A stretch of 64,000 nucleotides of DNA from Spirochaetae bacterium HGW-Spirochaetae-1 (lineage in GTDB: Bacteria > Spirochaetota > UBA4802 > UBA5550), in NCBI GenBank assembly GCA_002839375.1, contig PGXY01000006.1, positions 186,001 to 250,000 of the forward strand, given 5' to 3'. Positions within the stretch are counted from its first letter, which is position 1. Each line of letters starts with the position of its first letter. The translations under genes and the position numbers were made by a program. Below, piece after piece: positions 12,163 through 22,183 of the stretch. The notes below the pieces were generated by a model that ran no database searches, was not told the origin of the DNA, and saw only the letters and a program-made list of their open reading frames with translations.

Positions 12163-14829
12163 TTAGAGCCGGAAGGAACAGATTATTTCCGTACCGCCCC
12201 CGGGACTGCTGTCAATAGTGAGCTGAGCACCGATGAGACGCGCCCGGTAGTACATGATATTGAGACCCATTCCCGTGCTTGATTCCTTGTCAACGCGAAT
12301 TCCCCTGCCATCATCCCCGATGATGAGCGTCACATTGTCATCGTCATCATTGGTCAGTGTAAGATGTACCCGGGTGGCCCCTGAGTGTTTGATTATATTT
12401 ATGACAGCTTCCTGGATAATGTGGTGAAGGTGTATGGCTATTTTCTGGTTTTCGATCTGGAGCTGTCCATGCATGGATACCTTGCAGGAAATACCATGCT
12501 GTTCCTCCAGGTCCATTTTTATCTTTTTGAAGAGACCGTCAAAGCCTGTTTTTTCCAGGTTAACAGGAAAAACACCCTGTGCTATATTTCTCGTGGTGTT
12601 GATGGCATTATTGATCATTTCCTCGATTTTCATTGCATCTGAGGACTCATCCATACTTCTGTCTTGCAGCCTTTCGGCAAGCATTCTGCTGCGGATTGCA
12701 ATACCCAGAAGATCGTGGCTGAGACCGTCATGAAGCTCTATGCCTATTTTTTTCCTCTCCTTTTCCCCAACGTTGAGAATCTGCATCTCCTGCTGCAGTT
12801 CCCTGGTCGTGTCCCTCAGACTGATGACGACACCGGTGATGATATTATTCCTGTCGATAAAGGGATGCATGGACAAATCATAAAAGGTCCGCTTTCCGTC
12901 GGGAATATCGTACCACATGATGGTGTGGATGGCCTTGCCGATCAGGGAGTTTTCATAATTGGATGCGAAGACATTTTTGATCTCATCGTTGTCGTGAAAA
13001 ATCGCATCAATGGATCTGTTTATTACATCACGCCGTTTTTTATTGAAGGCATGCAGGAAGGCATTATTGGCAGCCAGAAATATCCTGCTCGTGTCTATAA
13101 ATGCCATGAGTTCCTGTGAGGATGACACAATATTGCTGTAAATTTTAAGAACCTCTTCAGTACGCTTCCTTTCCGTGATGTCCCGTGTGTTGAGTACTAC
13201 GCCTCCTATAAGGGGATCATGAAGCAGGTTCCTTACCGTGGATTCCATGAGATGCCATGATCCGTTTTTATGAGTGTGGCGGAATTCCATTGTCCTTATC
13301 TGACCCGGCAGCTTCAGCAGCTGTTTAAAATGTTTTCTGATTCGGGATGCATCGTCGGGATGGATGTAGTCCAGGGCCTGCGATCCCACGATGTCCTCGG
13401 GCCGGAATCCCAGAATTCTTTCGATGGGACTGCTGTCGTACATGTGCAGCCCGCTTCGGTCAAGAATGGAAATGATATCGGAGCTGTTTTCGATTAGGGC
13501 GCGAAGCTTGGTTTCCGAATCCTTCAGGGCTTTTTCCGCTTCCTTTCGGTAGGAGATATCGCGGATTATGGCCTGGTAACAGTGGTCATTATTGATTTCC
13601 ACGGGATTGATATTCAATTCGGCGAAAAAAGGTTCGCCGTCAAGCCTGAGAAAAAGCCATTCGAATCGTCCGGCTATGCCCTTGTCGGCCAGTTTAATCT
13701 GCTGGATAAGTTTTTTCTCCGATGAGATTTCTTCGGGCTGAAATTCAGGGGCAAGCCTGGAAAGATCGTACCGGACGATAGCCTCCTTCGTTATATGAAA
13801 AAGATCACAGAGGCTCTGGTTGCAGTCAATGATGCGCTCTTTATTGAATATGGCGATGGCGTCCTTCGCCGATTCAAAAAGGTTCCGGTACTTTTCTTCA
13901 GAGTCGATGAGGGCTTTTTCTACCTGCCTGCGCAGGGTGTCGTCTTCAATGATGGAGTAATTCTGGGTAATCCTCCCCCGGGAGTCATGTCCCGAAGTAA
14001 CGGTCAGGTCTCTCCAGATCGAGATCCCCTGGCCGGTGCGATGTCGGTTTTCCAGTGCCGACTGAAGGATAGTCTGCAACTCGACGATGATTCCCTTTAC
14101 GTCGTCGCATCTCTCTCCAGGATTTTTTGACATGAGTTTCATTATTATTTGCGACAGCACGAGTGGAAGGGCCTTGTTGATTTCATGAGGAGGTTTTACC
14201 TGCGATGTCGAAGGCGGTATAAAGTACCCCATGGCCGATGAGCCGGTGAAGGGAAGAACTCCCGTGAACATTTCATAGAATATAACGCCGAGAGAATGGT
14301 AATCCTCGCGATAATCACGTGAGGCTCCGGGAGCGTCACTATCCGTGGCATCGGGGATTTTCATTTCCCTTGCCGGGGCCATGGAGAAACCGGTTATTGC
14401 GGCGCTGCCGGTTTTGTCATACAGGTAGATATTAAATGGTGTCAGGTTGCCGTGAATGATGCCGTTTTCATGGACGAGTCTCAGGGTGTCTGCTATGTTT
14501 ATGGCTGTTTTCAGCAGTTCCTCAAGTGTCGACGGCTGTGTCCGCAGTTGCAGGTTGAGGGGGAGTCCCCGGTCGGGAAATATGACGGCGGGGTACTGTC
14601 CCCGGAAGAGCAGTTTGATATACTGCATAACGCCGGTGATATGGGACAGGGATGCTGTTATCTCAAAATCGTTCCTGAGGACCGTTCGGTCCTCCCATTG
14701 TGGGGAGCCTGGTTTATAAACGCGGATCTGAACGGGGCTGCCATCGGATATTCCGGTGCCGCGGAGGATAGTGCAGATGTCATTCTCCAAAAGAATTTCA
14801 CCGGTCCGGTATCCTTCGGCTTTCAGCAT
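12163..14829 (-). CDS. Pseudokinase-PAS-histidine kinase, NarX-like (HisKA_3) sensor
   Basis: 888 residues from the ATG at 14829, chosen because it overlaps the TGA of the ferredoxin gene (TGATG) and a longer upstream start would cross that gene. Order: a protein-kinase-like domain (about 10-270), three PAS domains (about 305-430, 435-560, 565-680), the HisKA_3 dimerisation helix with phospho-acceptor His700 (IELHDGLSHDLL), and a C-terminal HATPase (GDDGRGI, TGMGLNI). The kinase-like part keeps a VAIK-like Lys39 and a FYEMFTG-type APE/F region, but HRD reads HGN (126-128) and DFG reads TGF (146-148), so phosphotransfer is unlikely and it is probably a sensing or docking module. No membrane segment is seen: a cytoplasmic sensor. 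Partner regulator lies directly downstream. Confidence 0.92.
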   Translation of the reverse strand: MLKAEGYRTGEILLENDICTILRGTGISDGSPVQIRVYKPGSPQWEDRTVLRNDFEITASLSHITGVMQYIKLLFRGQYPAVIFPDRGLPLNLQLRTQPSTLEELLKTAINIADTLRLVHENGIIHGNLTPFNIYLYDKTGSAAITGFSMAPAREMKIPDATDSDAPGASRDYREDYHSLGVIFYEMFTGVLPFTGSSAMGYFIPPSTSQVKPPHEINKALPLVLSQIIMKLMSKNPGERCDDVKGIIVELQTILQSALENRHRTGQGISIWRDLTVTSGHDSRGRITQNYSIIEDDTLRRQVEKALIDSEEKYRNLFESAKDAIAIFNKERIIDCNQSLCDLFHITKEAIVRYDLSRLAPEFQPEEISSEKKLIQQIKLADKGIAGRFEWLFLRLDGEPFFAELNINPVEINNDHCYQAIIRDISYRKEAEKALKDSETKLRALIENSSDIISILDRSGLHMYDSSPIERILGFRPEDIVGSQALDYIHPDDASRIRKHFKQLLKLPGQIRTMEFRHTHKNGSWHLMESTVRNLLHDPLIGGVVLNTRDITERKRTEEVLKIYSNIVSSSQELMAFIDTSRIFLAANNAFLHAFNKKRRDVINRSIDAIFHDNDEIKNVFASNYENSLIGKAIHTIMWYDIPDGKRTFYDLSMHPFIDRNNIITGVVISLRDTTRELQQEMQILNVGEKERKKIGIELHDGLSHDLLGIAIRSRMLAERLQDRSMDESSDAMKIEEMINNAINTTRNIAQGVFPVNLEKTGFDGLFKKIKMDLEEQHGISCKVSMHGQLQIENQKIAIHLHHIIQEAVINIIKHSGATRVHLTLTNDDDDNVTLIIGDDGRGIRVDKESSTGMGLNIMYYRARLIGAQLTIDSSPGGGTEIICSFRL

Positions 14830-15260
14830 CACCTGGCCTTGATATCCAGATCGATTGTGGTTCCCGTCATGGCGTTGACCGGGCATGCCTTCATACACAT
14901 GCCGCAGGCGACGCATTTTTCAGGGTCGAATTCCACTTCCATGGTTCCCCTGTTTACTTCCAGGGCATCGACGCGGCAGACGCCGGTACAGGCACCGCAG
15001 TGGACACACTTTTCTTCGTCTCTGCGTATCATGTCCGCCAGGAGTTCAATCTGGACGCCCTCACTCTCGAGATACTCGATGCACTTGTCCATATCCTCCT
15101 GGAGACCCTTCAGCTCGAGAATGATCCGCCCCTCATGCTTCGGATAGATTTTTGCTTCCAATACGTTGAAGATTATATCGAAATCTTTTACGAGACGATA
15201 GATGATCGGCTTGTACATTATTCGGCTGGTGAATATCAATAGGATATTTTTTGAAACCAT
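14829..15260 (-). CDS. NIL-domain 2x[4Fe-4S] ferredoxin (homocysteine biosynthesis partner)
   Basis: 143 residues from the ATG at 15260, which has GAGAGGAGAG close upstream; a frame open to 15296 adds 12 residues without such a site. The N-terminal half is a NIL domain (ILLIFTSRIMYKPIIYRLVK...), an ACT-like fold known from methionine-related proteins. The C-terminal half has two CxxCxxCxxxC clusters (CVHCGACTGVC and CVACGMCMKACP). NIL-ferredoxins of this kind (MA1822 in Methanosarcina) give electrons to the DUF39 protein when aspartate semialdehyde is turned into homocysteine. The DUF39 gene lies two genes upstream. Its stop overlaps the start of the sensor kinase by one base. Confidence 0.92.
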   Translation of the reverse strand: MVSKNILLIFTSRIMYKPIIYRLVKDFDIIFNVLEAKIYPKHEGRIILELKGLQEDMDKCIEYLESEGVQIELLADMIRRDEEKCVHCGACTGVCRVDALEVNRGTMEVEFDPEKCVACGMCMKACPVNAMTGTTIDLDIKAR

Positions 15261-15348
15261 GGTTCTCTCCTCTCTATGCTTGTCAATGTCAGTCATATAT
15301 GCTTGATATCGCTATTTGTATTACAACAATCCATTCCGTCGAGCCGGT

Positions 15349-16068
15349 TCAGGTGAATTCAATCTGTCCCTGCGCCGCCAGCTTGTCGCGGTAAACAATG
15401 ACGACGCCGGAAATTTCCTCAACACCCATGGCGTATTCCAGCGCGGGAGTAAGAGACTCTTCGCCGGTGACGCGGTTGCAGGTTTCCGTGGCCACGGCAT
15501 CGGCAAGGGCCGCGTCAGGTGAAATCACCGTGGCCGTATCGGCCTTTCCGAAACTCAGAGAATGGCCCATTCTGCCGGAAGAGGTGCATATCCCGCAGGG
15601 TGTCCGGTCCGGCATGATGCGCAGGGACAGGGAATCGGCAAAATGTCCGTTCCCGGAAAAGATTTTTATGGTAACGGGCTCGATGACACTGAGCCATATA
15701 TCGCCGCCATTTTCCACTATTATTTCCGTTGTGTCGCTGAGCAGTTCACGTCCCGTAATTTCAGCTATCGCCCCGGCTACGGCCGCCATGGGGCCCACTC
15801 CCGCCTTTTCGGCTGCTCGGTGCATCAGGGCGGCGATTTCGGGACAGCCTTCTTCGCAGGGCAGGGGCGTGAGCGATGTGAGAAAACTCTCGTTCCGGGA
15901 GATATGGTCCAGCAGGTCATTTCTCAACCGCCGGACGATACTGCCGGTTTTGCCGCTCAGATCGAACCGGGCCCGGATTAAAAGATCGGTGGTGTCTATT
16001 TTAACCCTGAAGGCGGTCCACCGTGAAGTCTTCTCGTAATCCCTGTATATTTTTTCCCGATACCGCAT
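15349..16068 (-). CDS. UPF0280 family protein (COG2122), sulfide assimilation
   Basis: 239 residues, the usual family length. Typical features are YREKIYRDYEKTSRWTAFRVKIDTTDLLIRA at the start, GPMAAVAGAIAE, VENGGDIWL and CGICTSSGRMGHSLSFGKADTATV. The fold is related to ApbE. In Methanosarcina the member MA1715 was shown to help assimilate sulfide into homocysteine at low sulfide. The biochemical activity is unclear; a sulfur relay through Cys of the CGICTSS segment is conceivable but not shown. It sits 42 bases after the DUF39 gene and 88 bases before the NIL-ferredoxin gene on the same strand, which fits a shared operon. Confidence 0.9.
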   Translation of the reverse strand: MRYREKIYRDYEKTSRWTAFRVKIDTTDLLIRARFDLSGKTGSIVRRLRNDLLDHISRNESFLTSLTPLPCEEGCPEIAALMHRAAEKAGVGPMAAVAGAIAEITGRELLSDTTEIIVENGGDIWLSVIEPVTIKIFSGNGHFADSLSLRIMPDRTPCGICTSSGRMGHSLSFGKADTATVISPDAALADAVATETCNRVTGEESLTPALEYAMGVEEISGVVIVYRDKLAAQGQIEFT

Positions 16069-16110
16069 TGCATTATTCCGTGCGTGTCAGTCCGTTTCGG
16101 GCGATCCCGT

Positions 16111-17328
16111 TTATTTCCCTTCAGCCCCGGGAGTGGAACCGGCGTCCCTGTTGCCGTCATACGAAACGGATGGGAACTGTATCTGTGGTACTCCGACGGT
16201 AAAACCTTTTTCAATCCATTCTTTCAATATTACCGCTATTTTTTTGGCCATGGGATAGCTCGACAGGGGTGCCGCGGCTACGTCCCTTCCCTGGACCTGA
16301 ATGATTCCCGATTGCATTTGGGCAAAGCTCACTTCTCCCAGTGTCCTGTTGACCCCCGAGGGATAATCATAACCGTAATCGACAACGGGATAATAGATGT
16401 CCCGGTTCGATATGCCGGTGAAATAAGCCAGGTCCTCGTTCAGGATGGGAATGGGGATACCCAGGCCCACCATGAGGGAGCAGCCGTAGCCGGTGATGGA
16501 GGCTCCCCGGATAAAACGGGTATCCATCTCTTTCATGTCGCCGGTCACGGAAAGGGTTCCGGCGCCTTCCCTTGGAATGCCGTTTTCGCCGCGCCGTGCA
16601 TCGGGTGAGTGCTGCGTGCCGTACCATGTGACGGCACCCACGGCGCCTCCCAGGAATATTTTCGTTCCCGTTCCTATGGTCCAGTAATAGGGATCATTCA
16701 TGAGGGGGCTCAGTTCGCCGGCGCTGGAATAGTTGGCGTTCTGCAATTCGGGTCTTAAAATACCCATGTAGGTGTATATTGTTTTCTTCGACATGTTGAC
16801 GGCGCAGTTGTATCCCTGGTATGAATTTCTAGGGTTGTAGAGCATGGCGTTGCGCAGGTCCGAGATGGTTATGGTTTTTTCGAAATCCTGCAGGGGATAG
16901 CAGTCGGTGCCGTAGCCCTTCGCTTTCAGGGTGATCTCTTTCCCGGCAATGAGATCTTCGATGACATGCCCGCCGCCGTATCTGAAACTGCCGGGATGCA
17001 CCTTGTTCAGCGGGTCCTCGTCCCGGACCTGCGTGGCGCCCAGGTAGCAGTCCACGGCGGCAATGCCTCCATAAGCTTCAACGTCGTTGAGCCATACCTT
17101 CGAGGCCTTTATTTTGGGCCTGGTATGGCCGAAGTTGAGGAAGGCGCCCGAAGAACACATGATGCCGAAGGTGCCTGTTGTTACCACATCCACCTTTTTA
17201 AAGGCCTTTTTAACCCCTTCCTCGCGGACAATGCGGGGCATTTCTTCGGCGGTGACCACGACTGCTTCGCCTTTTCTTATTTTGTCGTTTATCTCATCAT
17301 AGCTCTTCTGTATTTTAATATCGCTCAT
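16111..17328 (-). CDS. DUF39/HcyBio homocysteine biosynthesis protein (L-aspartate semialdehyde sulfurtransferase)
   Basis: 405 residues. Family features: an N-terminal YDEINDKIRKGEAVVVTAEEM, GTFGIMCSSGAFLNFGH, ASKVWLNDVEAYGGIAAVDCYLGAT and IQGRDVAAAPLSSY-like C-terminal segment. Relatives in methanogens (MA1821) insert sulfur into L-aspartate semialdehyde to give L-homocysteine, by persulfides on two cysteines; Cys58 and Cys143 (with Cys94 a third candidate) are the likely counterparts here, to be settled by alignment. Unlike MA1821, no C-terminal CBS pair follows: the protein ends shortly after the core. First gene of the module; start by GAGGAGAG six bases upstream. It acts in the cytoplasm and needs the downstream NIL-ferredoxin. 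Confidence 0.93.
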   Translation of the reverse strand: MSDIKIQKSYDEINDKIRKGEAVVVTAEEMPRIVREEGVKKAFKKVDVVTTGTFGIMCSSGAFLNFGHTRPKIKASKVWLNDVEAYGGIAAVDCYLGATQVRDEDPLNKVHPGSFRYGGGHVIEDLIAGKEITLKAKGYGTDCYPLQDFEKTITISDLRNAMLYNPRNSYQGYNCAVNMSKKTIYTYMGILRPELQNANYSSAGELSPLMNDPYYWTIGTGTKIFLGGAVGAVTWYGTQHSPDARRGENGIPREGAGTLSVTGDMKEMDTRFIRGASITGYGCSLMVGLGIPIPILNEDLAYFTGISNRDIYYPVVDYGYDYPSGVNRTLGEVSFAQMQSGIIQVQGRDVAAAPLSSYPMAKKIAVILKEWIEKGFTVGVPQIQFPSVSYDGNRDAGSTPGAEGK

Positions 17329-21304: not shown

Positions 21305-22183
21305 ATGTTTGAGGCTCTTTTTCCTTCCATTTCATCGATTTTGTCCCTTGCGGGAGTAGGTCTGGTTTTCGGACTTATTCTTTCCATTGCCAAGATAAAA
21401 CTCATGGTGGAAAAAGACCCGAAAATCGACCAGGTTCTCAGTGTGCTGCCCGGGGCCAACTGCGGGGCCTGTGGTATGCCCGGCTGCTCCGCCTATGCCA
21501 CCAGGATAGTGGAAGAGCATTATGAGATATCCCTCTGTCCCGTGGGCGGGGCCGATTCAATAGCGAAAATCGCTTCAATAATGGGCCTTGAACCCGTGGT
21601 AGGTGTAAGTCCCATGACTGCCCGGGTTCACTGTCAGGGCGGTCATGCCGAGGCATTGAAGCGATTCAAGTACAGCGGCCCCAGAAGCTGCAGCGCTGCG
21701 CAGAATATTATGGGCGGTTTCAAGGTCTGCGAATTCGGCTGTCTCGGTCTGGGCGACTGCACCAGGGTATGCCCTTTTGACGCCATTCACATGGGAGACA
21801 AGGGTCTTCCCGTTGTAGTAATTGATAAATGTACGGGATGCAACAACTGTGTTGATGTGTGCCCCCGGGATATTATCACCCTTGCCCCGATAGATACGGA
21901 AGTCAGGGTAATGTGTCTCAACAGGGAAAAGGCGCCGGTGATGAAAAAGGGATGCTCCGCTGGATGCATCGGCTGCAAACTCTGCGAAAAGAACTGTCCC
22001 GAGGATGCCATTCACGTCACCGATTTCTGCGCGGTTATTGACTATGATAAATGCACCAACTGTTATACGTGTGTGGAGGTTTGCCCCGTACCGGTAATCA
22101 ACCCTGTAGAGCGCTCGAAAAAATTTCAGAAAAAAAAGGAAGAACCTGAAAATCTGCAGGCCGAAAACAAGGCAGAAGTATGA
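21305..22183 (+). CDS. rnfB: RnfB-like multi-cluster ferredoxin subunit
   Basis: 292 residues. An N-terminal membrane anchor (about 7-30) precedes the RnfB Fe-S domain with CGACGMPGC and a later Cys (GANCGACGMPGCSAYA, CPVGG). Then come CEFGCLGLGDC/CTRVCP, CTGCNNC/CVDVCP, CIGCKLCEKNCP and CTNCYTCVEVCP groups, enough for four further [4Fe-4S] clusters, as in the long RnfB of anaerobes. In the Rnf complex it passes electrons from ferredoxin or flavodoxin toward NAD while pumping ions. None of the other rnf genes (C, D, G, E, A) is next to it. Instead it overlaps fliG by four bases (ATGA at 22180). A charged tail (SKKFQKKKEEPE) ends it. Confidence 0.9.
   Translation: MFEALFPSISSILSLAGVGLVFGLILSIAKIKLMVEKDPKIDQVLSVLPGANCGACGMPGCSAYATRIVEEHYEISLCPVGGADSIAKIASIMGLEPVVGVSPMTARVHCQGGHAEALKRFKYSGPRSCSAAQNIMGGFKVCEFGCLGLGDCTRVCPFDAIHMGDKGLPVVVIDKCTGCNNCVDVCPRDIITLAPIDTEVRVMCLNREKAPVMKKGCSAGCIGCKLCEKNCPEDAIHVTDFCAVIDYDKCTNCYTCVEVCPVPVINPVERSKKFQKKKEEPENLQAENKAEV

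Follow-up and report, generated by a model that had tools for sequence, protein, structure and literature searches.

Three adjacent genes on the minus strand of the window (the whole 64-kb stretch of DNA that was analysed) encode a HcyBio/DUF39 protein, a UPF0280/COG2122 protein and a NIL-domain ferredoxin, and they are followed by the genes of a histidine kinase and a response regulator (Table 1). The original prediction had placed the three families together in one short run and had taken the trio as complete; both points were borne out, with the three families confirmed by profile searches and the three reading frames intact. The HcyBio protein of the trio is the single PF01837 match in the whole genome. 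For the UPF0280 protein the best NCBIfam model was PRK04334, with a score slightly under the cut-off (253 vs 271 bits), and in the match with the solved structure 2o34 (E 4e-30) its Cys161 pairs with a Cys. The gene of this protein lies between the other two, so that the ferredoxin gene is found two genes downstream of the HcyBio gene. As judged by Pfam and by the sequence, the ferredoxin consists of a NIL domain and two 4Fe-4S motifs with eight cysteines; a Shine-Dalgarno-like GGAGAG precedes 15260, which is therefore a more probable start than 15296. The start of the histidine kinase gene overlaps the stop of the ferredoxin gene (TGATG). No other methionine-related genes were found in the rest of the 64-kb window. 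An RnfB-like polyferredoxin gene followed by fliG was observed at 21305-22183, with no other rnf subunit among the neighbouring genes checked. In the literature searches made, no mention of UPF0280 under that name was found in connection with the DUF39 pathway, the term used there being COG2122.

Table 1. Genes of the trio and of the adjacent two-component pair (positions in the window)
Feature	Position	Strand	Evidence
HcyBio/DUF39 (COG1900a-like) protein, 405 aa	16111..17328	-	PF01837, residues 22-375, 509 bits, E 6.6e-153
UPF0280/COG2122 protein, 239 aa	15349..16068	-	PRK04334, E 2.8e-75; PDB 2o34, E 4e-30
NIL-domain 2x[4Fe-4S] ferredoxin	14829..15260 (probable; ORF open from 15296)	-	PF09383, E 8.7e-15; Fer4, E 1.6e-16
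Hybrid protein-kinase-like/PAS/HisKA_3 histidine kinase, 888 aa	12163..14829	-	Pfam and sequence
NarL/LuxR-type response regulator, 217 aa	11422..12075	-	Pfam

MA1821-type proteins have a conserved Cys54, which is needed in vivo, and a conserved Cys131 (PMC12068725). In the window HcyBio protein, Cys58 is found in the motif GIMCSSGAF and Cys143 in the motif GTDCYP; the former is invariant in the HcyBio sequences compared (133/133), and the latter is kept in 130 of the 133. The two cysteines are spaced by 85 residues in the window protein and by 76-77 in the homologues that do not have the extra loop (L099-L102), and the shorter spacing agrees with that from Cys54 to Cys131 in the published numbering of MA1821. 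In addition, the first cysteine of L099 is at position 54 if the first residue of the tblastn match is taken as position 1. Judged by motif, spacing and published numbering, and not by direct alignment, Cys58 and Cys143 correspond to Cys54 and Cys131, a match that the original prediction had proposed to test. The same prediction had pointed out that the DUF39 protein has no trailing CBS pair, and indeed no CBS domain was matched in it by the Pfam search. A CBS pair was also absent from all the bacterial homologues measured (0/132), of which 129 are about 380-409 aa long and three are HcyBio-ferredoxin fusions, and which include proteins from the Desulfovibrionales, where genetic work has shown the pathway. 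Since none of these 132 proteins has room for such a pair, its absence is the bacterial norm. The AlphaFold2 model of the HcyBio protein was a confident one, with a pLDDT of 90 and a pTM of 0.90. In the sequence and fold searches made, no close solved structure was found for the predicted fold: the best sequence matches were antibody chains (E > 0.03), and there was no Foldseek match below E 0.08 and no VIA-align Z above 3.4, which is not proof of a new fold.

The partner proteins are conserved as well. Cys161 of the UPF0280 protein (motif GICTSSGR) is present in the 32 of 32 relatives that have that column, and the eight cluster cysteines of the NIL-ferredoxin are invariant in 32 of 32 relatives. 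When 80 relatives were fetched from genome contigs, the order HcyBio-UPF0280-NIL-ferredoxin was observed in 30 of them, including the 18 closest, and one further relative had the trio genes in a different order; the recurrence of the same order argues that the clustering is not due to chance. The closest relatives come mainly from metagenome assemblies of Spirochaetota, at 69-75% identity; Desulfohalobiaceae, Desulfomonile and Syntrophaceae come next. In the tree, the window HcyBio protein falls in a Spirochaetota/Desulfohalobiaceae set of 24 rows (SH-aLRT 96), which is contained in a 31-row clade made up mostly of trio-bearing genomes (SH-aLRT 94), and this clade is sister to one with Desulfovibrionales and other Desulfobacterota (SH-aLRT 97).

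The neighbourhoods of the relatives were also compared. In five Spirochaetota relatives (L019, L020, L021, L026 and L034) the trio is likewise followed by a histidine kinase gene, whose product is 28-33% identical in the PAS/HisKA region; directly after it comes the gene of a response regulator partner that is 45-48% identical. In another Spirochaetota locus (L099:172-5277), genes for a rhodanese-TusA-DsrE fusion, an aspartokinase, HcyBio, NIL-ferredoxin and UPF0280 lie in a row, so that this operon combines a sulfur relay with the aspartate pathway. Furthermore, metE (cobalamin-independent methionine synthase) was found near HcyBio in L101, a homocysteine S-methyltransferase gene in L102, and Rrf2-cysK in L103. 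These Spirochaetota neighbours support the link of the HcyBio family with methionine. In L100, L101 and L102 the HcyBio protein is fused to a C-terminal ferredoxin with no recognised NIL domain, and the methionine genes of L101 and L102 adjoin the fusion. Near HcyBio in L043 (7136-7975) and in 15 other loci, mostly from Desulfobacterota, a protein starting with IALSGGIDSA was also observed; from this start it resembles a PP-loop ATPase and is perhaps a candidate sulfur donor of the LarE type.

The genome was searched for metX, metA, metY, metB and hom, as the original prediction had proposed. A homoserine dehydrogenase gene (hom) is present, metX was identified with PRK00175 (522 bits vs a cut-off of 331) and has metW next downstream, and metY, identified with TIGR01326 (607 bits vs a cut-off of 495), adjoins cysK and an Rrf2 regulator gene. 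No metA was found in the genome, and there is no separate metB, because no full-length Cys/Met-metabolism PLP enzyme other than MetY was found. Two proteins with a homocysteine S-methyltransferase domain are also encoded. With hom, metX-metW, cysK-metY and these two proteins in the genome, acylated homoserine is available. Upstream of metX there is a SAM-I riboswitch (94 bits), as in 12 of 14 metX loci from the window's order. In contrast, no riboswitch was detected near the trio at the gathering threshold, either in the 64-kb window or in 26 relative loci, and around the window trio no regulatory RNA was found at E values up to 1. The genome thus has a complete acyl-homoserine route under SAM control, so that life without acylated homoserine is unsupported, and the claim that the bacterium may fix sulfide with no acylated homoserine did not hold. 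Two observations had been named as speaking against the original prediction, a normal metX-metY route and a DUF39 protein lacking the reactive cysteines; the route was found, and the cysteines, Cys58 and Cys143, are present. A loss of acyl-homoserine synthesis was rejected, as metX, metY and hom were found, and a contaminant origin of metX was judged unlikely, given a contig of 470 kb and a SAM-I-metX arrangement that 12 of 14 relatives from the order share. The gene set does not replace the acyl-homoserine route and is probably a second homocysteine route beside it.

In a survey of 198 Spirochaetota genomes, given as raw counts with kinship ignored, HcyBio was present in 37. In the window's order, 28 of the 34 genomes sampled have HcyBio, and 24 of these 28 also have both metX and metY, whereas all six genomes without HcyBio keep metX. 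Two genomes (G124 and G169, 90% and 85% complete, respectively) have HcyBio and metY, and metX was undetected. Outside the order HcyBio was present in 9 of 164 genomes, and metX was found in none of these nine, as compared with 90 of the 155 HcyBio-negative genomes (Fisher p 6e-4, kinship ignored). Elsewhere in the phylum the HcyBio pathway thus takes the place of metX, and in the window's order it is found beside it. Coexistence with metX is common, as metX was found in 39 of the 59 HcyBio genomes of a Desulfovibrionales sample and, over the cut-off, in 19 of the 24 genomes that carry the trio and from which the loci were fetched. Methanosarcina acetivorans, which has both homocysteine routes (PMC12068725), served as a control, and both routes were detected in its rows of the survey. 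A single-contig Spirochaetota genome (G003; loci L103 and L104) has two copies of HcyBio and a NIL-ferredoxin gene after each of them, with no UPF0280 relative nearby and with metX and metY undetected. In Desulfothermus okinawensis (L035), in-frame stops were seen in HcyBio (one) and in metX (three), which are perhaps assembly errors.

A close known counterpart is the L-aspartate-semialdehyde sulfurtransferase of M. acetivorans (MA1821/MA1822 together with MA1715), which shares with the spirochaete the three families, the Cys54/Cys131 positions and the occurrence of both homocysteine routes in one organism. The two differ in that MA1821 has a C-terminal CBS pair, and in that the spirochaete has its UPF0280 gene in the middle of the trio. 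In Desulfovibrio, DUF39, NIL/ferredoxin and COG2122 are genetically needed for methionine, and homoserine is not an intermediate (PMC5764234). The three families of Desulfovibrio vulgaris Miyazaki F (DvMF_1464, DvMF_0262 and DvMF_0044) are also bacterial, and the HcyBio proteins of its order share the CBS-free length, but the genes lie far apart there, as judged by their locus tags, and the strain has no classical methionine route (PMC5764234), unlike the spirochaete. A bacterial version of the pathway, and the clustering of its genes in Dehalococcoides (DET0921:DET0919), have already been published (PMC5764234); there, in a different phylum, three adjacent genes were assigned to the DUF39 pathway, and the likeness to our trio is drawn from that assignment. 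MMP16/ComF, the coenzyme M synthase (COG1900d), belongs to the HcyBio superfamily and makes a thiol from an aldehyde, but in it a ferredoxin is inserted inside the COG1900 domain and the cysteines are different. The window HcyBio protein scored 138 bits with the MMP16/ComF equivalog TIGR03287 (cut-off 364), and its PF01837 match is uninterrupted, with no ferredoxin insert of that kind.

From the gene content, the conserved cysteines, the co-occurrence and the riboswitch contrast, which were observed directly, we conclude that the trio is probably a functional L-aspartate-semialdehyde sulfurtransferase operon that provides a second, SAM-riboswitch-independent route to homocysteine, as in M. acetivorans, and we give this reading a probability of about 0.72. 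The substrate, the product and the order of sulfur transfer would most likely be those published for the relatives (PMC5764234, PMC12068725). The UPF0280 protein would help to deliver sulfur derived from sulfide, HcyBio would carry it as a persulfide on Cys58 and add it to aspartate semialdehyde, and the electrons for reduction of the sulfur intermediate, which gives homocysteine, would come from the NIL-ferredoxin. The acyl route (hom, metX and metY) is tuned by SAM via the riboswitch, and the trio, with no known riboswitch and no CBS pair, would escape this control. For M. acetivorans, methionine control of the trio via the NIL domain has been proposed (PMC12068725). We infer that the spirochaete trio may be used under particular sulfide or redox conditions and that the adjacent two-component pair may control it. 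Two points weigh against this reading: the trio has no further methionine-related genes around it in the window, and homocysteine synthesis by the trio is less necessary where a regulated metX-metY is present.

In a rival reading, the trio moves sulfur to an aldehyde other than aspartate semialdehyde and yields another thiol, much as coenzyme M is made by MMP16, with methionine formed only via metX-metY. In its favour, most genomes of the order retain a complete metX-metY under SAM-riboswitch control, the trio clade and the Desulfovibrio-type clade are distinct, although they are sisters (SH-aLRT 94 and 97), and a different COG1900 subfamily uses sulfoacetaldehyde (PMC12068725). This reading is nevertheless unlikely: the protein has COG1900a-type cysteine positions and a NIL-ferredoxin partner and not the layout of MMP16 (138 vs 364 bits with TIGR03287), the sister clade is that of the Desulfovibrionales and other Desulfobacterota, where a role in homocysteine synthesis has been shown genetically, and no gene in the window or in the neighbourhoods of the relatives hints at another product. 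The HcyBio-UPF0280-NIL-ferredoxin clade is found together with SAM-riboswitched metX-metY in one order of the Spirochaetota as well as among Desulfomonile-type relatives, and forms in some members an operon with a histidine kinase and a response regulator. A related and doubtful proposal is that the trio acts as a branch of sulfur assimilation under redox or sulfide sensing, possibly towards a non-homocysteine thiol.

Alternatively, the trio could be the main homocysteine route, so that metX and metY would mainly serve other ends, for example cysteine synthesis by MetY, or salvage. The retention of HcyBio in 28 of 34 genomes of the order, and G124 and G169 with their undetected metX, are in line with this, but the SAM-I riboswitch before metX and metW after it are a signature of methionine control, the six of six genomes of the order without HcyBio keep metX, and the assemblies of G124 and G169 reach only 90% and 85% completeness, which makes this reading quite unlikely. 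That the trio is a leftover of gene transfer that no longer functions, as its patchy distribution in the phylum (37/198) might suggest, is highly improbable in view of the three intact frames, the invariant catalytic and cluster cysteines and the gene order conserved in 30 relatives.

These results indicated that the trio is a real and complete additional member of a known pathway, for which the main physiological inference has been corrected from the absence of acylated homoserine to a second route. What is modestly new is the dual-route order and the conserved histidine kinase/response regulator pair downstream of the trio; both are worth keeping, and so is the riboswitch contrast. Being compact and CBS-free, the three-gene form lends itself well to reconstitution. 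With the trio, a homocysteine pathway that has been published but little studied is extended to a Spirochaetota order whose members nearly always keep the classical route too, and since within the phylum HcyBio excludes metX outside this order and coexists with it inside, the Spirochaetota provide a natural comparison set.
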